Shown in pieces: positions 45,175-63,759 of a stretch of DNA of 64,000 nt. Positions within the stretch are counted from its first letter, which is position 1. Every line of letters begins with the position of its first letter. Source of the DNA: Mariprofundus sp. (lineage in GTDB: Bacteria > Pseudomonadota > Zetaproteobacteria > Mariprofundales > Mariprofundaceae); the NCBI GenBank assembly GCA_021772775.1, contig JAJFLH010000006.1, positions 62,001 to 126,000 on the forward strand, in the 5' to 3' direction. A model generated the notes under the pieces. That model was not told where the DNA came from. It did not search any database and saw nothing but the letters and a program-made list of their open reading frames with translations. The position numbers and the translations under genes are program-made.

Positions 45175-45704
45175 TTGCTGAGTATAGTTGTATGAGGTTG
45201 TGTTTGTTTGGATTATAGGTCTAACGCGAAAGGGGCGAAGACTGGATCCTAATACTCTTCCTATCATACTGTTTATAAATGATATTCATTGTTTGGTTCA
45301 TATTTATACCAACATAAATACCAACAGATTTAATTCTATCAACTAAATTTTCTTCAATTTGCGTGATTGTGCTGGGCATTCATATCTTACAATGATTAGT
45401 AATCAGAAGGTCTAAGTGTTTTGTTTGTTAAAATTAAAAAAGTTCTGATTTCATGAACAGTTTTAGTACAGTCATATGAATATATTCCATTAAATCACAG
45501 GCAAAAAACCGACTCTGTGATTTGATCGAATGACTAAACCTGCGTTAGACTCAACAATCCTAAACAAGATAGTCTACAATACATCCAACACCAATAAATA
45601 AATCATAAGGGCAGAATATTGCTAGTACGCCTCTACAAGGAATCAATTAGATTAAAATGACTAGAAGTACATGAAAGAAAAAAACACATTAGCTAGTTAA
45701 CACT
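45175..45704. other. AT-rich 530-bp spacer at the core/island boundary
   Basis: The base composition drops sharply here. Apart from one weak 52-codon ORF (45221-45379, minus) I see no gene. An imperfect inverted repeat GTTCTGA-TTT-CATGAAC lies at 45442-45458 and could be an operator. No tRNA, integrase or convincing attachment repeat is visible. Confidence 0.5.
45221..45379 (-). CDS. Possible small or remnant ORF at the island boundary (52 aa)
   Basis: ATG at 45379 reads MPSTITQIEENLVDRIKSVG and continues to a TAG at 45221. The amphipathic composition looks protein-like, but no ribosome site or recognisable family is seen. It could be the truncated start of a larger lost gene. Confidence 0.25.
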   Translation of the reverse strand: MPSTITQIEENLVDRIKSVGIYVGINMNQTMNIIYKQYDRKSIRIQSSPLSR

Positions 45705-47438
45705 ATGGACTCGCCACTGAAGCAATTCTTCGATGCTCTGAATACTGAAGAGAATTCTTATTTACCTCAACTTGCATCGGACAAGCTGGGGTTAATCTTG
45801 AGATCTGCAGTCAATGAGCTTGATTGGTGCCATTATCATTTCACCAAGACAGAAAATCCGACCGATGATCAGGAAAAATTATATTACCTGCTACAACTGG
45901 GCGTAACGCGCCTAATACAATTATCACTAGACGCTCGTCCATCATTTGACGTGCCAGTTGTGGCTTTTCCTCGCACAAATGATATTACGATTCCAGTGCT
46001 CAAAATCATCACCGGTCTTGGAGCGATAGAACATGGTCGCCGGATGGCACAAACAGCTTCAAGCGGACTTTTCCGCATCGAACTCACGGGAGAAAATGAG
46101 TTCCTAATTACGCTTCCAGCAGTCATCCCAGATGAAGAATATTATGAAAGATCTATTTCAGAACATTTCAAAGTTGGGTCTCGCAGAATGGTCTCAAAAC
46201 TACTGCAGTCGGACTCAGGGAAAAAACTTGAAACTGAGGTAAAGGAAACGCTGACCAAACTCGTGTACCCATTCGAAACTCATTATATCGGATACGAAGT
46301 AAATCCTCTACTTGACCAATATTTTTTTACTATCACATATAGTGAGGTACAGCTCTACGATGGTTACGACACATTTCACGACAAGGCCCGCTTTGGTGGA
46401 ATTCAGTATCAACACTATATCCTTGCCCTGACATTCTTCATTTCTATTTACGTGCGCCATGAGAAATTTGCTGAAGCACTAGTAAGAAAAGAACCCAGCG
46501 TAAAACTAGAGAATATACTCACAATCTCATCAGATACTGTGCCGTTTGTCGAAAGCATCAGAGATGCCGTAAACGATTTCGGTTATCTCTTCGAGGGCTT
46601 TGAAGAGATAAACCTCGAAGGTGCCCAGCGTATTTTTGAAGTCCTCTCCTGCAGCAGAAAGAATACATCCCTTTTATCGAGACCAGGATCCCCATTGCCT
46701 CTTATTATCCAATGCTCGGATCAGGGGTTTATTCGGTGCCTGACTGGTGCGCACACCAACCCAATGTTATTTATGCTTAATTCCTTACGGCATCATTTCC
46801 CTGAAGACTATGACAAGCAGCAGCAGTTACGTGAAAAGTCCATGCAGGCTGCAACTAGGCGCGTTTTGGATCAGGTCTTTGTCGAACTAAACTACCTTGA
46901 AAACATCAAGGTGAGGCTTAATGGTCGCCTACTTACAGACATTGACTTAGTCGTCACGGAGGAAAGTACTGGCACTGTCTTCCTCTGTCAGCTCAAACAT
47001 CAGGAATTGTATGGTTCCGACATCCACGCTAAACACCTTCGCACAAAGCGACTTAAAGATCAGATCAATAGTTGGAATGCATCGATTGATAACTGGATAG
47101 GTGTAGTGGGTGAAGCCGGGGTTCGTGCCTCCCTTCAGATACCCAAAAACTTTCCACCTTTATCTGTATACCGATTGGTCATATCCAAGCATTACGCCTA
47201 TCCCCTGAAAAGCCTGACATTCAACAGTGATACTGCTTGCGTAAATTGGATTGAATTTTTCAATTCAGTTGTGACTGTGAAAATGAAAAAAAACAAAAGT
47301 AGAAAGCTGGGAGATCTCGTTACATTATTGAAAAAAGTAGATACTCCTGATGACCTACCAGAGTTCCTTTCCGAGCCTCGAAGCGAATGGGTAATCAACA
47401 ATCTGAAATTCACCATTAGGCAAGAATGCAAATTGTAA
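45705..47438 (+). CDS. Uncharacterised large protein with a PD-(D/E)xK-like C-terminal motif
   Basis: 577 residues, no membrane segments. Around residues 406-432 the string LLTDIDLVV, ten residues, then FLCQLKHQ resembles the PD-(D/E)xK nuclease core, with D412 or D414, a beta hairpin and Q429-L-K431, in which Q replaces the usual E. The N-terminal 380 residues (TPVFKI.. absent; FPRTNDITIPVLKIITGLGA present) match no family I know. Codon use is AT-rich like the rest of the island. It is transcribed toward the SIR2 gene, 190 bases away. It may be a nuclease effector or an inactive relative. Confidence 0.65.
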   Translation: MDSPLKQFFDALNTEENSYLPQLASDKLGLILRSAVNELDWCHYHFTKTENPTDDQEKLYYLLQLGVTRLIQLSLDARPSFDVPVVAFPRTNDITIPVLKIITGLGAIEHGRRMAQTASSGLFRIELTGENEFLITLPAVIPDEEYYERSISEHFKVGSRRMVSKLLQSDSGKKLETEVKETLTKLVYPFETHYIGYEVNPLLDQYFFTITYSEVQLYDGYDTFHDKARFGGIQYQHYILALTFFISIYVRHEKFAEALVRKEPSVKLENILTISSDTVPFVESIRDAVNDFGYLFEGFEEINLEGAQRIFEVLSCSRKNTSLLSRPGSPLPLIIQCSDQGFIRCLTGAHTNPMLFMLNSLRHHFPEDYDKQQQLREKSMQAATRRVLDQVFVELNYLENIKVRLNGRLLTDIDLVVTEESTGTVFLCQLKHQELYGSDIHAKHLRTKRLKDQINSWNASIDNWIGVVGEAGVRASLQIPKNFPPLSVYRLVISKHYAYPLKSLTFNSDTACVNWIEFFNSVVTVKMKKNKSRKLGDLVTLLKKVDTPDDLPEFLSEPRSEWVINNLKFTIRQECKL

Positions 47439-47628
47439 TGGGCCGTTTAGTCAGCACCACTAACTCTAGCAATGATGATTTGCATCCCATATAAGAAGAA
47501 GTCAAAGTGTATGCTATACTTTATTGACCATAGTGGGCAAAGAAGTGTATAAAAGCATAAGCCTGACACTAATCTTGAGATCCCACGTGTTATTGGGACA
47601 AAAATCGAAACAGAGTTGAGAATAATTA

Positions 47629-49248
47629 ATGGATAGAGTTTTAAAAGATCACTCAAAAGCTGTAGTCCATTTGAGGCAGCAATTTAATAACGGGCGTTTA
47701 GGGTTGGTTTTTGGAGCAGGGATATCCAAAGACCTAGGTTTCCCAGATTGGAGTGGGCTAATTGAAGGAATAGCCTCTCACCCTGACATTAATGGCAAAG
47801 ATATTTATGATAGTGCAAAGAAATGGAGCAACACAACCTCAATAACGCAGTTATTATTTCAGCATTTCAAACAACGCAAGCTCAAAGAGCTAGAAGCTAC
47901 ATATTCATCAGTGGCTTATCGTGAGAAGCGAGTTCTTTCTGAATGGAGGGAAGCTGTTCATGAAGTGCTTTTTGCTAAAGCAGCCGTTGATCGCAAAAAC
48001 AAAGTCGACTCACACCCTTATCTAAAGGAATTCATTCAATTAATAAATAAAACTGAATTTTCTGTAAACTACAATTTTGATGACACCCTTGAGTTTATGC
48101 TTTCTCAGCCTGAATGGAATACGCCTAGTGGGAAAGGAAAGTCTTATCAGGCCGTTTGGAATCCATACATGCAGTTTCGTGACGGTACAGCCGTTATATA
48201 CCACCCCAATGGATATCTTCCTGGGGATAAAAATCTGCAACAGAGTGAAACATTGGTGTTTTCTGAAGAGTCTTTTTCAGATCAGCTTATTGAGAGCATG
48301 TCGGGGAAGCTTTCATCTCTACTGCACCTCTTCACAAAGAAAACATGCCTTTTTGTGGGACTATCACTTGACGACAACACATTGAAACACTTGCTACGAC
48401 AAGCTTCTTCAATATGCCCAGGGAACTTTCACTATTTCATTAGATACACAAGAGACAAAGACAGCCTGACTGACGATGAAAAGCAGGCTATATTTAATGC
48501 CAACTTTGAAGTGTATAACCTAATTACACTCTTTTTAAACAGTGAAGAAGTATCCCAGCTTGCCCAGCTTGTTACTTTGAACCCAGATGAATTTAAAACT
48601 AAGGCTGAAATAACAGGTGTAGATATAAAATTTAACTACTACCTTGTCGGAACAGTAGGGTCTGGTAAGTCCACTGTCTTAAGTCACTTTGGGAACCTTA
48701 AATTATTCGAAGAATGGATGGAAGAACGCCCCAGTGAACTTGCAAAGCCCTTTAATAAGTTGGATAAAAAAGAATTGAAAAAAGTAGATGGCTGGGTAGA
48801 TAGTCAATTCTATAAAAAGAACTTGGCATTGTTGGGGGAAACAGAGGGCCTACACCTAATAGATAGGACGCCTCTTGATCCAATAACCTTTTCACAAGAA
48901 ACCTCAGAAATGACAGAACGAGCTAAATCAATGGCTTTAGCAATTAGCCCCGGAATGAGCAATTATAGAATTGATATAGGTCAGGTGCTTTTCCTCAAGT
49001 CAGAAATTTCTGAATTGCAAAACAGACTTCTATCTAAGAGAAAAACTAGCTGGGATGAAAAAACCTTAGAGGAACTGCAGGATAGAACTGTGAAGCTCTA
49101 TAATGCTTCGCAATTAACTGAGATTGAAAATATTGCACGGCCAATAGAAACCGTTGTTAAAGCGATTGCTAGAACAATCTTTGTGGATGATTATATTCCT
49201 GTGGATTTACATGAAGTATTAATAGATACAGCAAAGGGAACCACTTGA
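47629..49248 (+). CDS. SIR2-domain protein with C-terminal P-loop nucleotide-kinase-like domain
   Basis: 539 residues. Residues ~20-300 form a SIR2-like NAD-binding domain: LGLVFGAGISKDLGFPDWSG with G29-A-G31, YNFDD at 148-152, H192 in IYHPNGYLPG, and the late GLSLDDNTLKHLL. Residues ~335-539 contain a second NTP site: Walker A GTVGSGKS at 341-348 and the lid-like D412-R413-T-P-L-D417, reminiscent of deoxynucleoside or thymidylate kinases. Defence SIR2 domains usually hydrolyse NAD+. One base separates the stop from the next start, so the pair is translationally coupled. Confidence 0.85.
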   Translation: MDRVLKDHSKAVVHLRQQFNNGRLGLVFGAGISKDLGFPDWSGLIEGIASHPDINGKDIYDSAKKWSNTTSITQLLFQHFKQRKLKELEATYSSVAYREKRVLSEWREAVHEVLFAKAAVDRKNKVDSHPYLKEFIQLINKTEFSVNYNFDDTLEFMLSQPEWNTPSGKGKSYQAVWNPYMQFRDGTAVIYHPNGYLPGDKNLQQSETLVFSEESFSDQLIESMSGKLSSLLHLFTKKTCLFVGLSLDDNTLKHLLRQASSICPGNFHYFIRYTRDKDSLTDDEKQAIFNANFEVYNLITLFLNSEEVSQLAQLVTLNPDEFKTKAEITGVDIKFNYYLVGTVGSGKSTVLSHFGNLKLFEEWMEERPSELAKPFNKLDKKELKKVDGWVDSQFYKKNLALLGETEGLHLIDRTPLDPITFSQETSEMTERAKSMALAISPGMSNYRIDIGQVLFLKSEISELQNRLLSKRKTSWDEKTLEELQDRTVKLYNASQLTEIENIARPIETVVKAIARTIFVDDYIPVDLHEVLIDTAKGTT

Positions 49249-49249
49249 A

Positions 49250-49711
49250 ATGATAACAAGAAAGCAAATTTATCTAGCTGCTCCCTTATTCAATGACCGA
49301 GAGAGGTCATTTAATAAATTCATTACTAACCAGCTTTTGAAAAACTTCAATGTTTTCCTCCCTCAAGAAGATGGACTTTTACTGGAAAATCTTATTAAGA
49401 AAAATATTGAAAGAGGTGTCGCTGAAAAAACAATTTACGAAACTGACACAACGGCAATGAAAGAATCTGATATACTTTTGGCAGTGCTGGATGGAGCAAG
49501 CATTGATGAAGGCGTAGCATTTGAACTCGGGTTTTGTGGAGCACTTGGGAAGCTCTGTATAGGCCTTCAAACAGATGTCCGTCGTCAGCTTCCGACAGGA
49601 AACAATCCAATGATTGAACAGTCTTGTGACAGAATCTTTAATGATGTTGATGCGTTATTAAAATGGCTAAATAACAACCAAAATAATTTATCCGATTTAC
49701 CCAATGGATAA
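49250..49711 (+). CDS. Nucleoside 2-deoxyribosyltransferase-fold protein
   Basis: 153 residues. IYLAAPLFNDRERSF at the start and VLDGASIDEGVAFELGFCGALGK at 79-101 are the substrate-binding and catalytic signatures of the family, with D81, D86 and E92 as the expected nucleophile/base region. The fold is shared by TIR and SLOG domains, which cleave or bind NAD-derived nucleotides. Coupled to the SIR2-kinase gene, it may make or destroy a nucleotide signal for it; this is inference. Confidence 0.85.
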   Translation: MITRKQIYLAAPLFNDRERSFNKFITNQLLKNFNVFLPQEDGLLLENLIKKNIERGVAEKTIYETDTTAMKESDILLAVLDGASIDEGVAFELGFCGALGKLCIGLQTDVRRQLPTGNNPMIEQSCDRIFNDVDALLKWLNNNQNNLSDLPNG

Positions 49712-49864: not shown

Positions 49865-51196
49865 TTAAGTTATGTGAAAGGCGAAAACGACTCTTGTGCA
49901 ATAGTTGGCAAAAAGAGGTGATTTACCATTGTTGCTCAAATCTGATACCACCACTTTACTTGGATGATGCCCATTAGCGGAAGTATCTGGAACACACAAC
50001 ACACTGTATGAATGAGGACATAGCTTCGCAAGCGAGCCATGCCATGAATGCTCGGAACCGTGATGAGGTATTTGCATTACATGAATACTTAACCAACGCT
50101 TAGTGCTGAAGAACTTCTCCATTTGATCCAAAGCATAAGAATCGAGGGATATGTCTCCTGTCAACAGCAACCCACTATTATTATTTTGGTTTTTATTTAA
50201 AGGAATGGTTACTAAAGCATGTTGATAGCGCTCTACAGACCTATTATACATCCTACATGCCCGCAGGCCTCTCTGGGGCTGGATAAGCGGTCTTGAAAGG
50301 ACGCAAAGGGATATGTCATTTCGAGGCACTGATCCCGTCCCGAAGTGCCTTTCATAGCAGGCCCGAAGATCATCTCGCCACTGTTTAAGAGTTTCTTCAT
50401 CTTTCTTCTCATAAAAATCATGCTTCTTAGCAACCAGCAGGCGAACCTCCTTTGCGATTTCTGCTAAATCCACTCCTGACTTGGGAGCGACCCCATCGGG
50501 ATAATCCTTATTGTAAAAAATAAACTCCCACACTCCAGCAACAGTCGCTGGTATTCTATGGTCTGCCAGAAGATATTCGCCACCAATTGGGTCTAAAGAG
50601 ACATTAAAATAATTGTCATCACCCTCGATCTCTTCTTCGTAGGCCTGAATATCAAGAGTTAGTGGGGCCTCCTCCTCTTCCTCGCCAAACACAAGCATGT
50701 TTTCTTCAGGATAACCTGCTTCTTCAGCCCCTCCCTTAACGAGAACAATTGAGCCAACTTGATCATCGAGCCCCCATTCTCTTAATGCTCCGGCAGGGTC
50801 AAGACCGAAGAGGATAACATTGCCTTCAGGATCATTATTGTCATCGAGCGAAGACACTAGCTCCAGTCGTTTTGATATAGATGCGTATGGAAGTATTAAC
50901 TTCTCGACATAAAAATGAGAAAGTAGATCTTTCAGGCCGTTTACATGGTCATTATCAAAATGAGAAATACAAAGCATGCCAACTGTGTTACTGGTTGAAA
51001 ATTTCCTTAAACCTCTAACCATCTCGGGAAGAATCGTTGATCGATTTGATCCACAATCAAACACCCAAAGAAACTCCCCTCTCTTCCTAGGTCTATAGTT
51101 GTCAGGGTCATACTCGTTTTCAAGAGTTATCTGCCCTGAAAAGAAAGTTCCATGTCCAACTGGATGAAATTGATTAATGCTATGTAATTTAGCCAT
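49865..51196 (-). CDS. ComEC/Rec2-type metallo-beta-lactamase-fold hydrolase
   Basis: 443 residues. Zinc motifs: SHFDNDHVNGL with H79, D81, D83, H84; D348 in LLTGDIS; and H378-H379-G-S in PHHGS. The pattern follows the soluble MBL domain of ComEC, a probable nuclease or phosphodiesterase. A long insertion (residues ~110-320) separates the first and later motifs. A strong GAGGGGG precedes the ATG. Last gene of the minus-strand defence operon, 44 bases after the giant ATPase gene. Confidence 0.85.
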   Translation of the reverse strand: MAKLHSINQFHPVGHGTFFSGQITLENEYDPDNYRPRKRGEFLWVFDCGSNRSTILPEMVRGLRKFSTSNTVGMLCISHFDNDHVNGLKDLLSHFYVEKLILPYASISKRLELVSSLDDNNDPEGNVILFGLDPAGALREWGLDDQVGSIVLVKGGAEEAGYPEENMLVFGEEEEEAPLTLDIQAYEEEIEGDDNYFNVSLDPIGGEYLLADHRIPATVAGVWEFIFYNKDYPDGVAPKSGVDLAEIAKEVRLLVAKKHDFYEKKDEETLKQWRDDLRACYERHFGTGSVPRNDISLCVLSRPLIQPQRGLRACRMYNRSVERYQHALVTIPLNKNQNNNSGLLLTGDISLDSYALDQMEKFFSTKRWLSIHVMQIPHHGSEHSWHGSLAKLCPHSYSVLCVPDTSANGHHPSKVVVSDLSNNGKSPLFANYCTRVVFAFHIT

Positions 51197-51240
51197 TGAT
51201 CCCCCTCGAGCTATTGAAAAAACATCTGGCTATGCAACGC

Positions 51241-54200
51241 TTAATCTAGCTTGTAAAAAGGAATTCCTTTGATGAACTCACCATTATGATCCAATGTTTT
51301 AAACAACGATTCAAAAACCTCCAAAGTAGCAATTCGACTGATTGTGCTTTGACCTGAACTAGGTAACCCCATACGGTCTAAATCACTAGCTCTGATACCA
51401 GGTACTTTATGTACAAACCAGCTCTGAATCGGTTCCATGTAATTTTCATTGTTTGTTTTAAAATGTGAAAAATACTGAGAGGCAAGAATTACTCCAACAC
51501 CAAACTCTCGCCCCTGCAATAATAACTTACTTAGCACTGGGAATTCATAAGGCATGATGTTGTGAGCTTCATCAACAAGTAGATATGAATCAATAAATCT
51601 AGTTTGAGGATCTGTTCCTAAAAACGGTTGTTTTTTAACTTTCTTCATGTAATCAAAGTAAAAATTCAGGAAAATGACGATAACCATGTTTTTTATTTTA
51701 TCATCACTAAAGCCACTTAAATCCAAAGCGACAGTGCCATCAAAAAATTCTTCAAAATTTATTATTTTGTCGGGATTACTTTCAAAAATCTCGTAATCAA
51801 TAATGTCTTCCATGATTGAATATGTGGTATCAACTTTACCCTCAACTATTTCTTCATAAGCATCAAATACTTCATAAATTGTAGGATCTCTCCCATCATT
51901 TTCAGAAAAACATTTCTTAACAGCCTTCTTTAAATGTGAGTCCTGAAGAGGCTTTTGAGTGCTAAATATTTTTCCAAGAACATCCCTAAAAAATGAATAA
52001 CGGTCCAGCCAAGGGGTAGAAGCGGATGAATCTGATGTATTAAACATATTAAGAGGAAGGCCTATCGGTTTAATTACTTTAACGTTTGCTTTAGAAATAA
52101 AATCACAATTTTCATTATTTAGGTCACTAAAATCACGTTTATAATCCAGAATAAGAACTTTTGGGGCGACTCCCCGATTACTTGCAGGATTACTTACTAG
52201 TTGATAAACGAGCGACTTTAAAAGTTGTGTTTTACCAGTGCCAAGATCGCCAACCACACCTATGTTTATATTGTTTAAAGCTGTATTTCCTGGGTAGAAC
52301 ATCGCTTCTTTATTTTCGAACTTGTCTAAACTTTCACCAACCATAAAGTGTATGCCAAGGCTACTCTCCTGTCCTGCTTCCACTTCTTGGTCAGGAACTG
52401 TTGTATCAACTTCTTTAGCTTTGTGTCCACCACTTTGAACTGGTTCGCCTTTGACTGAAGCTTGTACCCCCTCAATTTTACTCAAGAACCCCCAGTCTCC
52501 AACTTCATTAGCTATATTTTTTATTACAGACTCTTGATTTTGACTTAGTAAAATAGCTGCAGAATGATAAGACAATACAATTGTATCCTTAAACGTTCTT
52601 TGAGCTGTTGAAATAACCTTTCCACTGATGCATTTTTCTAAACTAATTAACCTGCCGATGTTATCGATTTCGATTTCAACACTTTGAGACATTAAATCAA
52701 TGAGTGTTTCTTGATGCAATTTAGACCATTCGGCCCCCCTTTTTTTAATACTCTCAATTTCACCATACACTCTAAAACCATAATCAATCCATGATGCCAG
52801 CATTTCCCGCCAAGCTAGCCCCCAAATGGCACTTTCTTGTGACTTTTCTAGCATTATTTCAAGGAAAGTAGCAAAAGTCTGAGTTTGTTTTATTGCATCT
52901 TCCCTCGCAATTTGCGTCATCTGTTCAGATCTAGCTTTGACCTCAACTGGAGTTAAACGTATTGAATTTACTTTGCCTTCTAGCAAGCTAATACTAATTA
53001 CAATTAAGTCTGGCCTCTCCATAGTTCCAGACTTCAAATAAGCTCTTAAGCTATCAAACCTTGGTTGAAAAATATCAGCAGGAACAATTAAGTTTATATG
53101 CGAACCTTTAAAGACAGAAATTAATCCATCACAATCACTGTTCACCTGAAATTCAGTTTGCAATAGCCTAAGTGCGACCAGCATACCTATCTCACCAAAG
53201 CTCGAAGTTCCACCACTGGTTAATTTCTTTAAAGTTGGCATGCCTCTTAGTGAAATTTCTTGCAATAAACTTTTGCTTTCTTTTTTATCTACCGGAGCAT
53301 GCTCTTGAAACTCAATCAATGCATTTTTAAGAGCTTCATGCATATTATCCGATTCACGTGCCAGCAAATAAAAACCGCTAGATTGACCTACATCAGAAGA
53401 GTATTTCGGTAATTCATAATCCCATAATAGTGATATTTGATCGGGCATATGAAAACACGAGGCATCAATTGTAGAAGATGAAACAGCACAGAAATCTGTA
53501 TTATCAAAAGAGTTTTCTAAAGTATTCAAATTAGGTGCATAAACCATACTATCAAATAAATCATACTCTATGCATGAGTTTTCCATTGTATCCAGTGTGT
53601 TCAATAGTACATTCCGGATGCTTTCATCAGCTTCAATAGGGGCAGTAATAAAGTATCCAACTCTTGATTCTGCCAGAAACTTATTTTGCTTTGAAAAGCT
53701 ATGCTTAATACTTTTTCGAAATAAGCCAGTTTGATCAACAGCAGACTTAAATTGATGTTTCTCGAAAGAGTTACTCATTGTTTTTAAGTGATCAATAATT
53801 GCCAAGTCTCTTTTTTCTGGTTGATCATTATTATTCTCTGTATACCAACGAACGTTAGTACCTGAACGAGCTGTTAAAGAAGCTAAAATGGCAGGTTCAG
53901 GTTGTGCTTTTTCAGCTCTCGTATCATATACCTTAAGTGAATTTGCGCCTGCAGAAGACCACTCATCACGCTCTAACCCTAGATGTTCCTCGCACCACTT
54001 TTCGATGCCTAAATTACAGGAACTTTGACCAATGGTATCACTGGTAAGAGAAACGGTGAGCGTAGATTTGGCGCATGCTAATTGACGCACATCATCGAGT
54101 GACCTTTTGACTTGCTGAATACTAAAACCTTGTATCATTCCATCTATAGAGATTCCGAATTCATCACCAAAAATAGACTCATAATTTTCATTATTCAGCT

Positions 54201-56616
54201 GGCTAGCAATAGTATCTGTATTCCAGAGTACACTCCAATAATCTGATGAGGTCCTTACAGCAGCGTACCCTTTATATTCGGGTGCGGAATTTGCGTTCAA
54301 ACAAGGCAAAGCAAAGCAATCAGGAAATACAGAAGGGTCAACAACACCTGTTGAAGGAGCATGAATACTATTCTTTCTAGCCTCTTCAAATATACTTTGA
54401 GCGTTACAATGCCAGGCAACTCTTACCGGATGAAATGGAGATAGGATAGCGGCATCAGGAATAGACTTTAAACAGTTGTTGCCAGATTCTTCAGAGTGCA
54501 CAGAAATAATATCACTCCAAATTGCAGTCTCATAGTCACTTCTTAGCCATTTAAGATATTCTTTTAAATATAAATCAACTGCACCTTTAAAATCTTCCTC
54601 TAAATAAAGCACCCCAAAATTAAGGGACTCAATTGAATCACTATTTTTATCACACCGATCTTTTAATAAACGACGCAGAACGTCCCTGCTAGCAATATAC
54701 GCTTGAGCCATATGAGAGTTTATAGATTCAAAACCCGGCCTTGGGTCTAAGAATATTTTCATGTCTGATATTACTGGGTTTGAATTCCAAGTTGGCTTAG
54801 TCCACTTGTTTTTAAAATCTGGTCCCAAAATAGCAGGGCAATAGGAATCCTTATCACTTAAGATCCAGTTCTCCAGATCAGATAACATCGTTTGCTTTAC
54901 ATCCACTTTAGAACCTGGATTTCCACCACAGCTCTCAATTACAAGTTTTCGAAATTCGCTTGAAACACCTTTGGGCGTAAACTCATTAACGGAAATGTTT
55001 ATCTTATATGTATAAATCCCATTGTTATCAATCTGAAATTCATAGACACAATCCTCTTCTGCTTCAATTAAACAAACTGCATGTTCATCAGAAGATGGCG
55101 TAATATTTTTCTCGGTTAACTCAGTATCGGAATCTGAATCACCTGAGGAAAGCGGAGTCATCTTTGTGAGAAAATTTATACCTTTTTTGTGATATAAATC
55201 CAATGTGTGGGAACCAATGCCATTTAATTCTATCTGGCATTCATAGTGCCCCTTATTATTCTGTTTCGCTTTTTTCCCTTTATCAGCTTTAAATTTAAAA
55301 GGTGTGATTTTAATTGCAGAGCGACAATTCATTGTCACTTTAGGTTTAAAATATTCTATATCGATAATTTTATAAATAAGAGGTTTAGCAGCTGATTTAG
55401 ATGAAAATTGATATTTAATAAAAAAGTCATGATCAATCTCTATTTCTTTATCTACCCAAGTTACATCTTCACCTTTTATTGTAATGGTATCTATAACTTG
55501 TAATGTTTTATTTCCAGATGACTTACTTATTTCAAGTGTTATTTCATCACCTTGCTCTTCTGTAGGCGATATTAAAAAAGAAGCTCCTTTTTGAATAACT
55601 TCAGGATGATTCTTAGAGACGGGCCTATAAAGGGGGTTTAAGCATGCAATATTTAAAAGTATGTTTTTTTGAGTTTCATCCGAACCTCCTAACAATCTGT
55701 ACCAAGTTTTATTAGTTAAAATACTCCACCAGTTCGATTCACCATCCTCTTTTGCTTTTGCATAATTCAGCATCGGATTATCATTAAAGTCTGAGGGCAC
55801 GAGACAATTTTTCGAAATAGCATTGGTGAACTCAAATAATGCGTCTTTGATTTCAGTATCTTTATCCGATAGTTCACTTACCAATAGGTCTGAACCAGAG
55901 GTAAATCCGTTATCAACAAAATAAGCTGCAATTTTCTTTGGTAACTTAAATGCCTCGATTACTTCATCATCTTCTATGCTTGGTACACCAATCTTTTCAC
56001 ATAAATAACGGCTTTCTGGGCGGGAATCAATTACATTGTAGATGTCTTCAAGAACACCCCAAACAGCACGCCTATCACTGTGCCTTTGATCGGCATCCCA
56101 TGCTTCAGTCAGAGCCTCTTTAATGGCCTCCTTTACAATCTTTCGTTCCTGATCATTGGGAAGTTTGGAATCTATCGAATTTAATATTTTAAATACAAAA
56201 GGCTCTTCCAGCCATTCGTTAATAGTTTGATGGTTTCTAGTTGAAATTCCTTTACGTTCAGCTGCTGTTTCAGAAGATAGGTTCGTTGCATCATCTATAG
56301 CATGAAGAGCAAAGTATGAGCCCTCTTCAGTATTCCTGACTGTTACTAAATGATTGTTCGTGCATTTCCCAGAGTCTAAATTTTTAGGGTCTTCAGTTAC
56401 ATCAGGATCAACTAGTAAAACAGGAATATACTTTGTTAAATCATTTCTAGATATTTTAAGTTTCTTTTCTCCATCAGTCAGAAGTACAAATATTTTATCA
56501 AGCATATACTTAGGGAAACCTGAGAAAAGAACTCGGATTGGGTCCCTTTCGTTTGTTAAAAGCATTGAAATCTCATCTATAATTTCTTTAGTTAGAAACC
56601 CATAAAAACTATTCAT
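51241..56616 (-). CDS. Giant DptH-like protein: PD-(D/E)xK motif plus HerA/FtsK-type ATPase
   Basis: 1791 residues. The N-terminal ~1000 residues have no familiar domain. Around 1190-1230 lies a nuclease-like motif, RPD with D1203, then E1225-V-K1227. The C-terminal ATPase has Walker A GDLGTGKT at 1456-1463, Walker B LLVDEAH at 1680-1685 (D1682, E1683) and GREFGVGVILASQ, as in HerA/FtsK translocases. Size, domain order and neighbours recall DptH of the Dnd phosphorothioation-dependent restriction system. Fifteen bases separate it from the upstream gene. AT-rich. Confidence 0.75.
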   Translation of the reverse strand: MNSFYGFLTKEIIDEISMLLTNERDPIRVLFSGFPKYMLDKIFVLLTDGEKKLKISRNDLTKYIPVLLVDPDVTEDPKNLDSGKCTNNHLVTVRNTEEGSYFALHAIDDATNLSSETAAERKGISTRNHQTINEWLEEPFVFKILNSIDSKLPNDQERKIVKEAIKEALTEAWDADQRHSDRRAVWGVLEDIYNVIDSRPESRYLCEKIGVPSIEDDEVIEAFKLPKKIAAYFVDNGFTSGSDLLVSELSDKDTEIKDALFEFTNAISKNCLVPSDFNDNPMLNYAKAKEDGESNWWSILTNKTWYRLLGGSDETQKNILLNIACLNPLYRPVSKNHPEVIQKGASFLISPTEEQGDEITLEISKSSGNKTLQVIDTITIKGEDVTWVDKEIEIDHDFFIKYQFSSKSAAKPLIYKIIDIEYFKPKVTMNCRSAIKITPFKFKADKGKKAKQNNKGHYECQIELNGIGSHTLDLYHKKGINFLTKMTPLSSGDSDSDTELTEKNITPSSDEHAVCLIEAEEDCVYEFQIDNNGIYTYKINISVNEFTPKGVSSEFRKLVIESCGGNPGSKVDVKQTMLSDLENWILSDKDSYCPAILGPDFKNKWTKPTWNSNPVISDMKIFLDPRPGFESINSHMAQAYIASRDVLRRLLKDRCDKNSDSIESLNFGVLYLEEDFKGAVDLYLKEYLKWLRSDYETAIWSDIISVHSEESGNNCLKSIPDAAILSPFHPVRVAWHCNAQSIFEEARKNSIHAPSTGVVDPSVFPDCFALPCLNANSAPEYKGYAAVRTSSDYWSVLWNTDTIASQLNNENYESIFGDEFGISIDGMIQGFSIQQVKRSLDDVRQLACAKSTLTVSLTSDTIGQSSCNLGIEKWCEEHLGLERDEWSSAGANSLKVYDTRAEKAQPEPAILASLTARSGTNVRWYTENNNDQPEKRDLAIIDHLKTMSNSFEKHQFKSAVDQTGLFRKSIKHSFSKQNKFLAESRVGYFITAPIEADESIRNVLLNTLDTMENSCIEYDLFDSMVYAPNLNTLENSFDNTDFCAVSSSTIDASCFHMPDQISLLWDYELPKYSSDVGQSSGFYLLARESDNMHEALKNALIEFQEHAPVDKKESKSLLQEISLRGMPTLKKLTSGGTSSFGEIGMLVALRLLQTEFQVNSDCDGLISVFKGSHINLIVPADIFQPRFDSLRAYLKSGTMERPDLIVISISLLEGKVNSIRLTPVEVKARSEQMTQIAREDAIKQTQTFATFLEIMLEKSQESAIWGLAWREMLASWIDYGFRVYGEIESIKKRGAEWSKLHQETLIDLMSQSVEIEIDNIGRLISLEKCISGKVISTAQRTFKDTIVLSYHSAAILLSQNQESVIKNIANEVGDWGFLSKIEGVQASVKGEPVQSGGHKAKEVDTTVPDQEVEAGQESSLGIHFMVGESLDKFENKEAMFYPGNTALNNINIGVVGDLGTGKTQLLKSLVYQLVSNPASNRGVAPKVLILDYKRDFSDLNNENCDFISKANVKVIKPIGLPLNMFNTSDSSASTPWLDRYSFFRDVLGKIFSTQKPLQDSHLKKAVKKCFSENDGRDPTIYEVFDAYEEIVEGKVDTTYSIMEDIIDYEIFESNPDKIINFEEFFDGTVALDLSGFSDDKIKNMVIVIFLNFYFDYMKKVKKQPFLGTDPQTRFIDSYLLVDEAHNIMPYEFPVLSKLLLQGREFGVGVILASQYFSHFKTNNENYMEPIQSWFVHKVPGIRASDLDRMGLPSSGQSTISRIATLEVFESLFKTLDHNGEFIKGIPFYKLD

Positions 56617-56631
56617 TACTATTTCCCATTT

Positions 56632-58158
56632 TTAAAAAGAATTTTTGAAAGGAGAATTGATTATCATGCCACCTTCAGCGTCTGGACTTTCAATGACCAG
56701 ACCTAAACTTCTAAGTAGTTTGTAGAATATACTATTACTATCCTGTTGAATCTCAGCTTCTAAGCCATAAAAAGAAAGTTGTTGAATCAGGTCTGCAATG
56801 GTGCACGGTCCATTAGACCGGGCGACAGTGCAGTGTACCATTAACAAAAGCGCAGTTGGCCCTAGCCCCACTACCCATGGAGCGCTGGAATAAGCACCTC
56901 TTTTACGAAGAAAGTAACCTTGGTCATAGCTTTCTAGGCCGGCCTCGGATGTCTGCCTTTGCCTAACAACATAGCTAATAAACTCTAAAATATTTTTAGA
57001 TGTGCCTTTTTTGCAGGATGTGATTCTAGGTTCCATTTCAAGAATGTTTTGTAAGTTCCTTCGATATTCATCGTATTCGAAAGAGGCTCTTTGTTTTGCC
57101 AAATGATTTAAAGTTTCAGTGATTTTTTCAGGAGAAGTTAATTCAATTTTAGCATCATCAAAGGACTCATTGTCCGAAATGCCACTCAATACTAAATTAA
57201 TTGAACAGCGACCTACAACATAACCTCTAACTGTTTCTTCTATTGTTTTGCTAGTTGGTTGCTCGAGAGACCAAAAACATTCTTTTTGTGATAACTCTTG
57301 TGTTACATCATTAAGACTAAAGTGCGTCCCATACTTTAAGGCATCCTCAAGCATCAAAGATATTTTTTTGTTAATAGTACAACACCACATTACGTGAGAA
57401 CATGCCGCTATTCGACATAAGGATTCCAACATTGAAACCCATTGCCTTCGAGTTAATGTTTTTTTCAACGCTAAAACTACTTTTAAATCTTTTACAAAAT
57501 GTGCAGCTGGGGTTTCTAACAAGTGTTTATCAAATACTTCATTTTCTTTTAGAGGCAAACTACTGGGTTTAGTCCAAGCCCCAATAAATTCTTCCTCACG
57601 CCAAGTAACCATTTCTGTTTGAATTAATCTCGCCCAGATATCATCATCCTCTGTAACAGATAATTTTTCAAATATATCTTGCCAAGTATTCAGGGCATCT
57701 AATTTATTATCAGCTCCCATACTCACCATTTTGGCAATCAATTTACCTGGGTTCCATGGGTTGCCAGCTAGCCTTGCCGACATAGAATAAATTGCAGAGT
57801 CGGGTACAAATGGGCTTAATTGTAAGAATTGCCTTTTAGATTGATTCGCTTGCTTCGGGCTAGTAATAGACTTAGTGACAATTTTAACCCATAAATCATC
57901 ATCAACATCTATAGCGCTTTCGGTGCCATTAGGTCGTTTCCGCTTATCAAGGTTCTTTGTAAACCTTCGTCCAAAAATAGGGGTTTTCCTTTCTGTAGCT
58001 ACTCCAAAAAATCCTACATTTCGGTATAAAGATGCAAGTAGAATTTCACCTGTTGCAACTTCTGGTAGAGGACTTAAGTGGATAAAACTTTTAGTATATT
58101 TTTTATGTAATTTTTCTGAACTCCAGGGGGCCTCAATGAAGTCTAATAATTGGCTCAT
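56632..58158 (-). CDS. DptG-like winged-helix protein
   Basis: 508 residues from ATG 58158, chosen because GGAGAG lies seven bases upstream and one base separates it from the previous stop; the frame also opens at 58173 inside that gene. Mostly helical. The C-terminal ~100 residues (GPCTIADLIQQLSFYGLEAE then YKLLRSLGLVIESPDAEGGM) look like a winged helix. Position between the two ATPases matches DptG. No catalytic motif is seen, so it may be a scaffold or DNA-binding subunit. Assignment depends on context. Confidence 0.6.
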   Translation of the reverse strand: MSQLLDFIEAPWSSEKLHKKYTKSFIHLSPLPEVATGEILLASLYRNVGFFGVATERKTPIFGRRFTKNLDKRKRPNGTESAIDVDDDLWVKIVTKSITSPKQANQSKRQFLQLSPFVPDSAIYSMSARLAGNPWNPGKLIAKMVSMGADNKLDALNTWQDIFEKLSVTEDDDIWARLIQTEMVTWREEEFIGAWTKPSSLPLKENEVFDKHLLETPAAHFVKDLKVVLALKKTLTRRQWVSMLESLCRIAACSHVMWCCTINKKISLMLEDALKYGTHFSLNDVTQELSQKECFWSLEQPTSKTIEETVRGYVVGRCSINLVLSGISDNESFDDAKIELTSPEKITETLNHLAKQRASFEYDEYRRNLQNILEMEPRITSCKKGTSKNILEFISYVVRQRQTSEAGLESYDQGYFLRKRGAYSSAPWVVGLGPTALLLMVHCTVARSNGPCTIADLIQQLSFYGLEAEIQQDSNSIFYKLLRSLGLVIESPDAEGGMIINSPFKNSF

Positions 58159-58159
58159 T

Positions 58160-60733
58160 CTATTTCTCTCCAATAAACGCTAATTCTTCATCTGTATCAA
58201 TCTCATACACTTTGGAACCAATTTTTATGTCAGCGCTTACATCAAGAAACGCTCCATCTCTGACTATTTCACCAGCGACAATAGATTTAACTTCATCCAG
58301 CATCGCAAAAACTTCTTCAGGTAATGAAGCTTCATTTAAACCATTTTCTACCTCTCTCAATGATTTAAATAAATTAAAAGTAACCGGTAACCAGCGGTTT
58401 TTGTGAATAGCAATATATGGTAAATGTTCCATAGGCTTTGACACCTTCACTTCTTGCTTAAGCATTCGGGGCTTAATTTCGTTAACTAGTAATGATATGT
58501 CTCTATCTCTATGTGATACCGGCTGACCAAATGTCGTCGAAAGGGGTATAGAAAAATGTCCGTGCTCATTAATCAATCCACGTATTTGTTTTTCTGTATT
58601 TTTAATTTGTCTTCTATCTTGATGAATTTCCGAATAATCGATTAAAGCATCGACGTTCTTACATCGCCCATATCTAACACCCAAACTACGCTTTACTAAC
58701 CTAGATGAAAATTGTCTGATTGAGGCTTGTAAGAAACGAACCTGATTAGAGATCAGGGGACTATGGTTATGTTCCATCAAAAATTCATCTGCAAAAGTTA
58801 AACCTTTTAGAATTCTCTTTTCAACTTCTGGTAATCTTCTAGATACTAATTTTAGGCCATCACTAACAGATAATCCAAATCTCTCATCAATTACACAGGC
58901 AGTAACATTGGTTTTCTCATTGTTAACACTCCCTTCAAAAAATATAACATCACCACTTAACAACGCAGGATCTAAATGTTGAGAAAAACCCTCAGAAAGT
59001 ATTTTTCTGATAGAGCTTGAATCATTGATAGCTAAGCTACCAAGAGCCCTGAAGTGACTAGAAGCAGAGACATACTCTTTATAAAGCTTCATACTTCTAG
59101 GTTTTTTAAGCACCTGTAGCTTGGCTTTGCGATGTTCACCTTTATTCAATTTGGGCCATAAAGAAAACAACCTATGGTAATACAGTTTACTCATAAGCAG
59201 GTAAGGCGCTTTAGCAAAACTTAGTTCTTCTCCTTCTTTTTTAATGATTTCCAATTGCTTGGCAGTCCAATCACATGGAGAATATATTTTTTTCCCAACC
59301 ATTAACTCTTCTTGATCGCCAAGAAGTAGATAAGACACTAGTGAATATAAATCTCGAAAAGTCCATCTTTTTCCAGCGCACAGCTCGTAGTAGAGCAGTA
59401 ATTTCACCAAATTATTTTGAGCGTCTTTTTCTGAAAGTAATAGTTTATTTTGGCAAAATGGGCACATCAAACTGTTTTCACAAGGAGGCTGCCATAACTC
59501 ATCTTTCAGAGCTTGTTTCAGAATTTGATGCATCACAGTCTCTGATTTTTCGGGTGTTGGGAAAACCAGCGATTCTACATCCATAGGCCATATCGCAATA
59601 TTTTTCCCCTCGAGTGGCCAACAATCAGGGGCTTTAGGGCCTCCACTTGCTGCTTTAACCAACTCACTAATCAAGCCAATCAAAACTTTATTGTCTTCTT
59701 TATGTGCTAGTGAGTAAGCGTTTGCCAAAATTCCACGATTGATACAGCATATATATATCCCTGAAAATTCCTCACTTAATAGACTACTAAGTTCATCATT
59801 GAATAGCTGCTCTGGGCTGATACTGCTCCGTTCAGTATCTTTTTCTGTAGCATCTTGCACTAAATGTATTTCAGCCTGTACTCCTCGGTTAGATTTCCAT
59901 AAATCAGAAAATACAACTATAGATTTTCTTGGGGGTAACTTCCCCTCTTGAGTCGTATATTGTTCAGCAAAACGATTCGTCAATGCGCCATTGGCATTTA
60001 TGGCATTATCAAAAGCCTCAATACACCCTTCAACAGCATCTGTTTTTCCATTACCCGGCCCACCTATTAATAAAATTGCCCTTGGAGGATTTTCCACGCC
60101 ACCATTCACAATCCCATCAACCCAGTTTTCTAATTTAATTGTTAAAGGTGTCTCGATTTTTTCACCTGCGGGTCTTCCTGAGTTTTCTTTAAATGGGTGC
60201 CTAACGCCACCTTTTTTAGAGCCTGACCAATTGACAAAACCAAGCGGGTATAGCTCGTTTATTTCATCACTCATTGTTTTACCACCATTGATAATAGAAT
60301 CACTTTGATGTGCTGTTTGCTGCTCTTTAGAAGTGTGATTATTTAAAGAGACTCGCGAGATATTAATCGCGAGAAATTTGCCTTTGTAGACTGTGAGGGC
60401 GACTAAATCATCTCCCATTGCCATCTTGTTTAACGCAGCAACCCATAGTCTTCGGTCGCCTCTCGTAGAAGACCTATACAAAGTCATTTTACTTTGGATT
60501 CCACTGTTTTTTCCTAAGCACTTTATTGGGAGAAAAACTTTATTTTCTGCACCAAACTTTTGGCTTTCAAAATCATGTAGGTTATTTGAGGATAGAAAAT
60601 GACGTACTTTATTCGTAGCATCTAAGATGCCTTTGCTGAGACCTGTTTCAGTAATATGAATCAGCTCAAATGAGACTGATTGCTTTGATAAAAACTTAAT
60701 CCATTCGTTCTCTTTAACGGAACATTCCCTCAC
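58160..60733 (-). CDS. DptF-like P-loop ATPase with N-terminal recognition-like domain
   Basis: 857 residues starting at GTG 60733, with GGGGAG five bases upstream. Residues ~1-130 form a separate domain (STRGDRRLWVAALNKMAMGD) that recalls, weakly, the EcoRII-N/B3-type DNA-recognition fold. The ATPase core follows: Walker A GGPGNGKT at 224-231. A cysteine cluster ENSLMCPFCQNKL suggests a zinc ribbon in the middle. The C-terminal half is unknown. It overlaps the next gene and lies 76 bases after the methyltransferase. By size and order it is the counterpart of DptF. Confidence 0.65.
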   Translation of the reverse strand: MRECSVKENEWIKFLSKQSVSFELIHITETGLSKGILDATNKVRHFLSSNNLHDFESQKFGAENKVFLPIKCLGKNSGIQSKMTLYRSSTRGDRRLWVAALNKMAMGDDLVALTVYKGKFLAINISRVSLNNHTSKEQQTAHQSDSIINGGKTMSDEINELYPLGFVNWSGSKKGGVRHPFKENSGRPAGEKIETPLTIKLENWVDGIVNGGVENPPRAILLIGGPGNGKTDAVEGCIEAFDNAINANGALTNRFAEQYTTQEGKLPPRKSIVVFSDLWKSNRGVQAEIHLVQDATEKDTERSSISPEQLFNDELSSLLSEEFSGIYICCINRGILANAYSLAHKEDNKVLIGLISELVKAASGGPKAPDCWPLEGKNIAIWPMDVESLVFPTPEKSETVMHQILKQALKDELWQPPCENSLMCPFCQNKLLLSEKDAQNNLVKLLLYYELCAGKRWTFRDLYSLVSYLLLGDQEELMVGKKIYSPCDWTAKQLEIIKKEGEELSFAKAPYLLMSKLYYHRLFSLWPKLNKGEHRKAKLQVLKKPRSMKLYKEYVSASSHFRALGSLAINDSSSIRKILSEGFSQHLDPALLSGDVIFFEGSVNNEKTNVTACVIDERFGLSVSDGLKLVSRRLPEVEKRILKGLTFADEFLMEHNHSPLISNQVRFLQASIRQFSSRLVKRSLGVRYGRCKNVDALIDYSEIHQDRRQIKNTEKQIRGLINEHGHFSIPLSTTFGQPVSHRDRDISLLVNEIKPRMLKQEVKVSKPMEHLPYIAIHKNRWLPVTFNLFKSLREVENGLNEASLPEEVFAMLDEVKSIVAGEIVRDGAFLDVSADIKIGSKVYEIDTDEELAFIGEK

Positions 60734-60809
60734 CCAGACTCCCCAGACTATTGTCTTTCTAGTTTAGCTTAGATTCTACATAAGTATAGTTGCAGTGGCG
60801 CTTTGGCTG

Positions 60810-62474
60810 TTAGAGTAGTTTTTTCAACGCTTTGCCGACCGCTTTGGCTAATAATGGCGCAACTGCATTTCCAACTTGGGTATATTGAGGAACCTCTTTC
60901 CGGCGGTTCGCGCCGCCAGTGGTTTCTTTTGCGCAAAATTCGAACCAGTCTGGAAATGACTGTAATCTAGCTAACTCTCGAACGGTCATGGTTCTTGCTT
61001 TCCATGGATGAACAAAGTCATCAGGGATGCTTACTATTGTTGGCGATGGTAAATTTTTAATAAGTGGCCGTTGGCTATGTTTAAGAGTTGTCAGCTCAAT
61101 TGTTCTCCAAATAAGACTTTCCTTATCCTCAGGGGTTAGATCTAGACCGTACTCGCACTGTTTTTCATCCAGCTTTGATGAGACTTCATCATAGGCCTTC
61201 TCTACAATATAGCTTAAGCCAAATATGGATTCAGCGCGAACCTTTGAGTGACTTTTCAGTAACCTAATGCTCTCCTGCAGTTCAGAGTCCCAAAGCTCCC
61301 CGTATTTTTTCGTCCAATTACGGCGAACATATTTCTCTTTTTCCTGCCTTATCCACTTCTCCTTGGAGCGGATAGCAGATTCTTCAAAACCTGAGTGACC
61401 ACGGTTCCATGCATCATTTAATACCCCTGAGTGTTCACGGTCCCATTCAATAGAAACCGTCCCTTCCTTCTCTAGCTGCCACTGTGTATTCCACTCTTCA
61501 TGCTTGGAGCATTCTACATTTTTAGCAGTTCGAAATGCTTTAGCTGGAAGGCTAACCAGAGAAACCAAGGAAGGATCCATATCAGAAAGATAATGGTACA
61601 AATTAAAACGTTCTTTAGTTCGAGGGTTATGGCTTCTCAAATGTTGATTATTCAGATTCCTTTTAGCGGCTCCTACAAATATCACTGGCTTCATAGTCTT
61701 CATAAGCTTGGCGTATGGGGAAGTATGCCCTTCTGGAAGATAGTCATCGTCACCAATGTCACCAAGTGCTTCTTGTACAGTAATTCTGTCTTTGGACGGC
61801 TTTAGGCCCAGAAGCGGACATACTCTTGGCCCAGATGAAGACCACAGAACTTTAGAAAAGTCTGGGTGACCTGATAGATCCTTTCTTACTCCTACAAGGA
61901 ATACTCGTGGACGGTGTTGCGGAACTCCATAATGCATAGCATTCAATTTCATTTTTTGAACAGAATACCCTGCTCCTTGAACCGCATCCGCTAGCTCTTC
62001 AAATGGTGTTTTTGAATCTTTGTTAACACCACTTCGTGTGTTCATTCCAGCAACATTCTCAACCAGTACAATTTTTGGTTTAACTTGGCGAACAAACTCA
62101 AGGAACTGCCAGGGAAGGTTGTTTCGCGCATCAATTCCGCGCCGTTTTCCTGCTAATGAAAACCCTTGGCAGGGTGGCCCACCAGCGACAAGGTCAATGT
62201 CCTGCTGACTCAGGTCCTTCATTACGTCTTTATTGGCTAGAACCTCGTAAAGGCTATTAACTACTAATCCTTTATCTTTTTGCTCTGATAGATCGCTTGC
62301 AAGGTGCTTTTTCCATTTCCCATCATCAATTCGCTCAACAATATTATGGTAGTAAGTCTCGGCGGCCATATCAGACTTCTCAACAGCTAAAACGTGCTCA
62401 AAGCCAGCCATCTTCAGGCCAAGGGATAGGCCGCCGCACCCGGAAAATAGGTCAATAAACTTGGGTTTTGGCAT
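60810..62474 (-). CDS. DNA (cytosine-5-)-methyltransferase
   Basis: 554 residues with all ordered C5-methyltransferase motifs: I DLFSGCGGLSLG, IV GGPPCQGFS with nucleophile C102, VI ENV at 139-141, VIII QHRPR at 186-190, IX (RPLIKNLPSPTIVS), and X QVGNAVAP. The target recognition region (~residues 250-460) is larger than in simple type II enzymes. It makes 5-methylcytosine at an unknown sequence. First gene of the five-gene operon; no separate restriction endonuclease or vsr gene is adjacent, so the ATPase genes are the likely restriction partner. Confidence 0.92.
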   Translation of the reverse strand: MPKPKFIDLFSGCGGLSLGLKMAGFEHVLAVEKSDMAAETYYHNIVERIDDGKWKKHLASDLSEQKDKGLVVNSLYEVLANKDVMKDLSQQDIDLVAGGPPCQGFSLAGKRRGIDARNNLPWQFLEFVRQVKPKIVLVENVAGMNTRSGVNKDSKTPFEELADAVQGAGYSVQKMKLNAMHYGVPQHRPRVFLVGVRKDLSGHPDFSKVLWSSSGPRVCPLLGLKPSKDRITVQEALGDIGDDDYLPEGHTSPYAKLMKTMKPVIFVGAAKRNLNNQHLRSHNPRTKERFNLYHYLSDMDPSLVSLVSLPAKAFRTAKNVECSKHEEWNTQWQLEKEGTVSIEWDREHSGVLNDAWNRGHSGFEESAIRSKEKWIRQEKEKYVRRNWTKKYGELWDSELQESIRLLKSHSKVRAESIFGLSYIVEKAYDEVSSKLDEKQCEYGLDLTPEDKESLIWRTIELTTLKHSQRPLIKNLPSPTIVSIPDDFVHPWKARTMTVRELARLQSFPDWFEFCAKETTGGANRRKEVPQYTQVGNAVAPLLAKAVGKALKKLL

Positions 62475-63387: not shown

Positions 63388-63759
63388 TTATACCTGTAAT
63401 GATTTAATAAGTTGTGAGAATGCAATGCCCACTGTGTCATCTCGGACTTCATTTGCAGGGACATCGACCCGCGTCATTCTCAATAGTTCCAGTGATGCCT
63501 TTAGACGTACGTGGTCTGCCCCTGTGCGGGCAAGCTCGACTAACGTGTTGGCAGCAAGCTCTGAGTTGCTCTCTAGTACTGTATATGCACGCTCACGCTG
63601 TTTGGTCGACATGCCTGTTAGTTCATCCGCGAACTCTGGCTTCTGCTTCCACAAACTTAGAGTTTTACGGGACACACCGACCTCTTTAGCTACCTGCTCA
63701 TCGGTCAGTTCATCCTGATATAGCAGGTAAGCAGCTTTATGCATTTTCGCGGTCAGCAT
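63388..63759 (-). CDS. Phage-type helix-turn-helix protein (terminase small subunit-like)
   Basis: 123 residues. The N-terminal HTH (YQDELTDEQVAKEVGVSRKT then LSLWKQKPEF) followed by a helical segment (LARTGADHVRLKASLELLRM) is the pattern of phBC6A51/terminase-small-subunit-like HTH proteins of phages and satellites. No large terminase, capsid or integrase gene is in the window, so it may instead be a regulator of a mobile island. Confidence 0.65.
   Translation of the reverse strand: MLTAKMHKAAYLLYQDELTDEQVAKEVGVSRKTLSLWKQKPEFADELTGMSTKQRERAYTVLESNSELAANTLVELARTGADHVRLKASLELLRMTRVDVPANEVRDDTVGIAFSQLIKSLQV

Follow-up and report, generated by a model that had tools for sequence, protein, structure and literature searches.

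The window, that is, the whole 64,000-nucleotide stretch of Mariprofundus sp. DNA analysed here, contains five ORFs on the minus strand, separated by gaps of 76, ~1, 15 and 44 bases. They encode a C5 methyltransferase, three proteins here called F, G and H, and an MBL-fold hydrolase (Table 1). The ORF check confirmed the places and common orientation of the five genes in the original prediction, which had given the F/G gap as -14 to 1 because G has a TTG start and an alternative ATG five codons after it, one base past the F stop codon. Profile searches agreed with the earlier assignments of the cytosine-5 methyltransferase (Table 1), of the HerA/FtsK ATPase in the 1791-aa H protein (DUF87; PADLOC DndH model at residues 1219-1790, E 1e-62) and, more weakly, of the MBL fold (defence-associated MBL models, E 1e-7 to 1e-11).

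Table 1. Genes and features of the operon and of the surrounding island, in window numbering, which is continued beyond the end of the window.
Feature	Position	Strand	Remarks
C5 cytosine DNA methyltransferase (modification gene), 554 aa	60810..62474	-	PF00145, E 4e-60; unusually long target-recognition region
F-like subunit, DndF-type P-loop protein, 857 aa including the extra N-terminal domain	58160..60733	-	GTG start; profile match to DptF
F N-terminal domain, ~150 aa	60281..60733	-	Common to restriction enzymes of the MvaI/BcnI family; DNA-binding fold, tentatively B3-like
G-like subunit, DndG-type predicted DNA-binding protein, 513 aa	56632..58173	-	TTG start; predicted fold match to DndG
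H-like subunit, DndH-type, 1791 aa	51241..56616	-	PD-(D/E)xK nuclease at aa ~1200-1230 and C-terminal HerA/FtsK ATPase; profile match to DptH
ComEC-type MBL-fold hydrolase, 443 aa	49865..51196	-	Accessory, outside the conserved core; defence-associated MBL models
Small terminase-like gene	63388-63759
O-like replication gene	64080-64679
Integrase	65600-66832		Beside tRNA-Leu

The defence genes are located within a low-GC island (0.39 vs 0.49) that extends from window position 45236 to window-equivalent position 67023. At both of these ends there is a repeat of 11 bases (CGAAGACTGGA) that corresponds to the end of the tRNA and could represent att sites. Together with the integrase, replication and terminase-like genes listed in Table 1, the island looks like a phage-satellite-type (PICI-like) element with defence cargo. 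On the plus strand, at window positions 45705-49711, there are genes for a 577-aa unknown protein, a SIR2-domain/ATPase protein with ThsA-like matches and a nucleoside deoxyribosyltransferase-like protein, which probably form another defence system.

Relationship of F, G and H to DndFGH

In the HMM searches proposed with the original prediction, F and G matched none of the TIGR03236/03237/03238 and SspFGH profiles, and H alone matched a DndH model. The curated DndF, DndG, SspF and SspG models (PADLOC, NCBIfam TIGR03236-03238) did not match F or G at E values up to 0.1; in PADLOC this was also the case at E values up to 10, and the PADLOC SspF, SspG and SspH models did not match any protein of the trio.

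Family alignments made from relatives were compared with true DptF, DptG and DptH, which came from one genome and from plasmid records with annotation. The F alignment matched DptF over 508 columns (E 2e-8) and SspF with an E value of 6e-7. As a control, the F profile was compared with DndD, SspC, a HerA domain, a type II secretion ATPase and others; the best E value was 0.002, the matches covered ~25-70 columns, and in the control P-loop proteins they were confined to the surroundings of Walker A. H aligned with DptH across the nuclease and HerA part (E 7e-40), and weakly further upstream. For G, hhalign detected no significant sequence similarity to DptG or SspG, so that the case for this protein rests on its predicted structure. 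The AlphaFold2 model of G (pLDDT 92.5) had a single significant fold match in the PDB, the DndG structure 7exx (E 2e-4, probability 1.00, TM 0.37/0.42), and it is this match that stands behind the winged helix first ascribed to G.

The PD…E-x-K nuclease motif, rightly pointed out in H from the start, was invariant in all 64 H proteins of the family, and the HerA Walker A motif was kept in 62 of them. The Walker A motif of F was kept in 69/69 proteins. Most F proteins also contain a C…CPFC Zn-binding motif, nearly invariant among them, which may be the counterpart of a Zn insert that certain DndF proteins are reported to contain (PMC10853773). As far as sequence can tell, these conserved motifs of F and H fit an active machine. 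Taken together, the comparisons support F, G and H as full, though remote, homologues of DndF, DndG and DndH, collinear with them and encoded in one operon. The Dpt-like ATPase trio of the original prediction was thus upheld, through profile alignment for F and H and through the predicted fold for G.

The F protein of the window differs from all the other surveyed F proteins in its residues 1-151, which they lack; these relatives begin at about residue 152. The same domain was found as the N-terminus of MvaI/BcnI-family restriction enzymes (E 1e-15 to 1e-24), which are encoded beside C5 methyltransferases on plasmids and viral contigs. Its sequence had no match in Pfam or the PDB. An AF2 model, with pLDDT of ~89 across the core, gave the DNA-bound B3 domain of LEC2 as the best PDB match in Foldseek (probability 0.96, E 0.047). 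B3-like domains occur in the restriction enzymes R.CglI and R.NgoAVII (PMC4267653), and the F N-terminal domain can tentatively be regarded as a B3-like target-reading domain on the basis of its modelled fold. An internal ATG at about residue 154 of F, with a possible ribosome site, could give rise to an F protein that lacks the extra domain. In another operon (L118:1-4263), composed of genes for a C5 methyltransferase, a 200-aa unknown protein, a DUF262/GmrSD_N protein and an SRA-HNH nuclease, the MvaI/BcnI-type extra domain constitutes the C-terminus of the DUF262/GmrSD_N protein.

Conservation and exchange of the methyltransferase

A survey in which F was the only bait gave 70 loci, 66 from the genome collection and four from plasmids. 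The 66 loci, found among about 85,000 species genomes, are a lower bound because the scan was pattern-based, and the 70 loci are not fully independent events, since near-copies are included (L030/L031 and L013/L014). The methyltransferase-F-G-H arrangement is rare, and its loci belong to Pseudomonadota, Planctomycetota, Verrucomicrobiota, Bacteroidota and Gemmatimonas. Two viral contigs carry relatives, and in one of them, an IMG/VR contig, the methyltransferase-F-G-H-Vsr set is complete (L125:7268-18596), suggesting carriage by mobile elements. The F core had no tblastn match in annotated phage genomes.

A C5 methyltransferase gene was present within five genes of F-G-H in 67 of the 70 loci, on the same strand in 63, and typically directly upstream of F. 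The three exceptions were two contig-end cases (L063 and L075) and L015, where no methyltransferase gene adjoins the trio, an HNH gene follows H, and C5 methyltransferases are encoded elsewhere in the genome. As F was the sole bait and the trio is homologous to DndFGH, this linkage indicates that methyltransferase-F-G-H is a conserved system, and by this conserved association METHYLTRANSFERASE is part of the F-G-H system. The methyltransferase is therefore kept with the trio, as the original prediction requires, and no catalogued family, such as a BREX, DISARM or MADS subtype, covers F or G.

The catalytic motifs of the methyltransferase (PPCQG, ENV, QxRxR and GNAV) are intact and conserved in the family, while its target-recognition region is variable, as in restriction-modification (R-M) families with many specificities. 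The locus hence has what is expected of R-M systems, genetic linkage between a methyltransferase whose catalytic motifs are intact and a nuclease, here one with an invariant PD…ExK motif. Genes for the repair of deaminated 5-methylcytosine (5mC) were found in 37/70 loci, namely vsr in 32 and an HhH-GPD glycosylase gene in five others, all of them without vsr. Vsr repairs the T:G mismatches that arise from 5mC, and the HhH-GPD glycosylases could have the same role at these loci; the presence of both kinds of genes is indirect evidence pointing to real 5mC. No Vsr gene was found in the host genome.

Some loci had a different gene content. Two C5 methyltransferases are encoded near F-G-H in L022, L059 and L066, which are candidates for methyltransferase exchange in progress. 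In L076, the gene after H (L076:11891-13054) encodes a protein whose N-terminal domain is of the AspBHI type (modified-cytosine-dependent), an odd partner for a system protected by 5mC. An apparent extra gene in L007 (X165) was rejected, since H is split in this assembly and X165 is its N-terminal piece.

The H proteins of the window and of its three closest FGH relatives (L007, L012 and L013) form a clade with 100/100 support. A single clade for the four corresponding methyltransferases was rejected (AU p 5e-5, a value subject to model limits, given the long branches), so the methyltransferase was most likely exchanged among these close FGH relatives, judging from the phylogenies. An initial grouping of the window methyltransferase with those linked to MvaI/BcnI enzymes was dropped, since wider sampling gave it an unsure place on a long branch. 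No co-variation was detected between the methyltransferase recognition region and 50-aa windows of F, G or H when the similarity of the methyltransferase core and of FGH was controlled for. With a score of 0.18, the best window stayed inside the range of the permuted maxima, whose mean was 0.20, and the reading of the sequence could thus not be placed in G or H.

The swapping of methyltransferases beside a conserved FGH, and the missing co-variation of specificity with F, G and H, are what would be expected if F-G-H were a standalone counter-invader complex and the methyltransferase a passenger, or a regulatory or anti-restriction protein, rather than the source of a self mark. Such a standalone role has been proposed for DndFGH, which often occurs without the genes for phosphorothioate (PT) modification (Rakesh et al. 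2024, PMC10853773). However, for a passenger one would expect more losses than were seen, with a methyltransferase beside FGH in 67/70 loci and usually in the same place directly upstream of F, and 5mC-repair genes accompany the methyltransferase-FGH loci. We therefore regard the standalone explanation as unlikely.

The fifth gene behaves differently from the other four. The MBL protein keeps the ComEC-type motifs HFDNDH, TGD and PHHGS, but no homologue was found in any of the other methyltransferase-FGH loci surveyed. As it occurs in the window only, it lies outside the conserved core, and the proposal that it is a component of the system was not borne out. Similar MBL proteins are found elsewhere without FGH, for example near a HEPN gene in Tistrella, and we lean slightly towards considering the five genes as two adjoining defence systems, methyltransferase-F-G-H and a separate MBL-based one. 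Against this division, the MBL gene starts 44 bases after H on the same strand, and is thus probably co-transcribed with it. The division is in any case compatible with the explanation that we favour for the first four genes.

5-Methylcytosine as a putative self mark

The most satisfactory explanation, and in our judgement a likely one, is that the locus encodes an R-M system in which a C5 methyltransferase is combined with a diverged DndFGH-type restriction complex and 5mC serves as the self mark. This reading draws on experiments with the Dnd and Ssp complexes, which damage DNA that lacks the self mark and are toxic in the absence of the mark (PMC8092258; PMC12707154). The idea that 5mC replaces PT for a Dpt-like trio was central to the original prediction, and it is supported by the homology of the trio, the linkage of the methyltransferase and the 5mC-repair genes. 

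In this system the methyltransferase would place 5mC on the host copies of its own target sequence, and the F-G-H complex would attack incoming DNA without it. F would be the nucleotide-binding P-loop subunit, G the DNA-binding subunit, and H both the nuclease and the HerA-type DNA translocase; ATP would drive the HerA translocation and the PD-(D/E)xK site of H would nick or cut. In this host, the extra DNA-reading domain on F may aid site finding and the MBL hydrolase could be an added effector. We infer that 5mC blocks F-G-H, that F-G-H cuts unmodified DNA and that the extra domain of F reads the target. Several points speak against this explanation: the replacement of methyltransferases among close FGH relatives, which a strictly matched specificity must explain, the negative co-variation test, L015, with no adjoining methyltransferase, and the reported indifference of PT-linked DndFGH to m6A (see below).

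The opposite logic is also conceivable. 5mC would then activate the complex, which would be modification-dependent (type IV-like or SspE-like), and the methyltransferase would mark the host DNA so that sensing is licensed, not for protection. In SspE-type systems the mark has a stimulating effect (PMC8092258), and the L118 operon associates the F N-terminal domain with a DUF262/GmrSD_N protein beside a C5 methyltransferase and an SRA-HNH nuclease. However, the FGH-type complexes that have been studied (Dnd and Ssp) attack unmarked DNA, and the usual partners of the F N-terminal domain are MvaI/BcnI enzymes beside a C5 methyltransferase, the normal layout of protective R-M systems. We give this alternative very little weight.

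Under the self-mark explanation, the methyltransferase-F-G-H systems would differ from the PT-linked ones in the reader itself. PT-linked DndFGH has been reported to sense PT only, with m6A in the motif being disregarded (PMC10470545), so that the reader would truly have changed in a branch that reads 5mC. In a broader proposal, which is possible but somewhat doubtful, the DndFGH-type complex would be a restriction chassis with a changeable self mark (double-stranded PT, single-stranded PT or 5mC), and with a specificity exchangeable through methyltransferase swaps and, in this host, through a B3-like reader that F would have acquired by fusion from MvaI/BcnI-type enzymes and that would provide the fitting site recognition.

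PT is present at only 10-15% of DndFGH sites. FGH complexes paired with a C5 methyltransferase would offer a far easier handle on self/non-self discrimination by DndFGH, since standard enzymes and bisulfite sequencing suffice to add, remove and map their mark. They would also show that sulfur chemistry is not obligatory for FGH complexes, and they add a conserved defence system, present for example in pseudomonads and rhizobia, that is not recognised as a system by the PADLOC 2.0.0 and NCBIfam 20.0 models.

Comparison with known systems

The closest known system is DndABCDE-DndFGH (Dpt), which has the same F-G-H gene order, the PD-(D/E)xK and HerA ATPase parts of H, the DndG fold of G, and an F protein with a P-loop kinase-like domain and a Zn motif in the lid region. 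It differs in that here the constant neighbour is a C5 methyltransferase instead of DndABCDE, and F and G are too diverged for the DndF and DndG models. The original prediction had noted that dndABCDE and sspABCD are absent from the operon; no dndBCDE genes were found there, and no match to DndC in the host genome.

SspBCD-SspFGH, of the Vibrio anguillarum FF-93 type, likewise has a three-gene restriction module, to whose SspF protein F is distantly related, but there SspBCD makes a single-strand PT modification, whereas here the modification would be C5 methylation and the operon has no sspBCD. In a locus from rumen bacteria (L073, with its near-copy L074), the H protein of L073 groups with SspH and not with the remaining H proteins, which is what the 'HerA capture' idea of Rakesh et al. 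predicts.

MADS, an eight-gene system, also combines methylation with a HerA-type protein. Of its PADLOC models, mad8 is related to DndH and hits H (E 4e-12), and mad7 is related to DndG; however, the similarity here is limited to the HerA part, G has no mad7 match and the mad1-mad8 set is absent. MADS shows that there is a precedent for joining methylation to DndGH-like parts. A PADLOC scan of the five proteins for DISARM and BREX core genes (drmAB(C), brxC/pglZ) gave only a generic DrmMII-type similarity of the methyltransferase, among the best 25 of its 64 matches.

Two R-M types have parts in common with the locus. In the CglI and NgoAVII systems, a C5 methyltransferase likewise goes together with a restriction complex that is ATP-dependent, and the DNA-binding domain is B3-like (PMC4267653), but they use a PLD nuclease and an SF2 helicase and have no DndFGH-type proteins. 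The MvaI/BcnI-family type II systems share the C5 methyltransferase neighbour and the ~150-aa N-terminal domain of the window F, but their nuclease is a simple single protein without ATPases.

Rakesh et al. (2024) described cytosine methylases with CxC-DndE systems, and DndFGH as standalone, without an inbuilt modification module (PMC10853773); no published description of methyltransferase-F-G-H was found in the open-access papers searched. Annotated DptFGH genes were also seen beside Dam-type adenine methyltransferases, and not dndBCDE, in the stretches shown of L104:925-13590 and L102:4214-17697, the latter with an AlwI-type restriction enzyme, and FGH may therefore pair with m6A too. The methyltransferase-F-G-H arrangement is best read as a third branch beside Dnd and Ssp.
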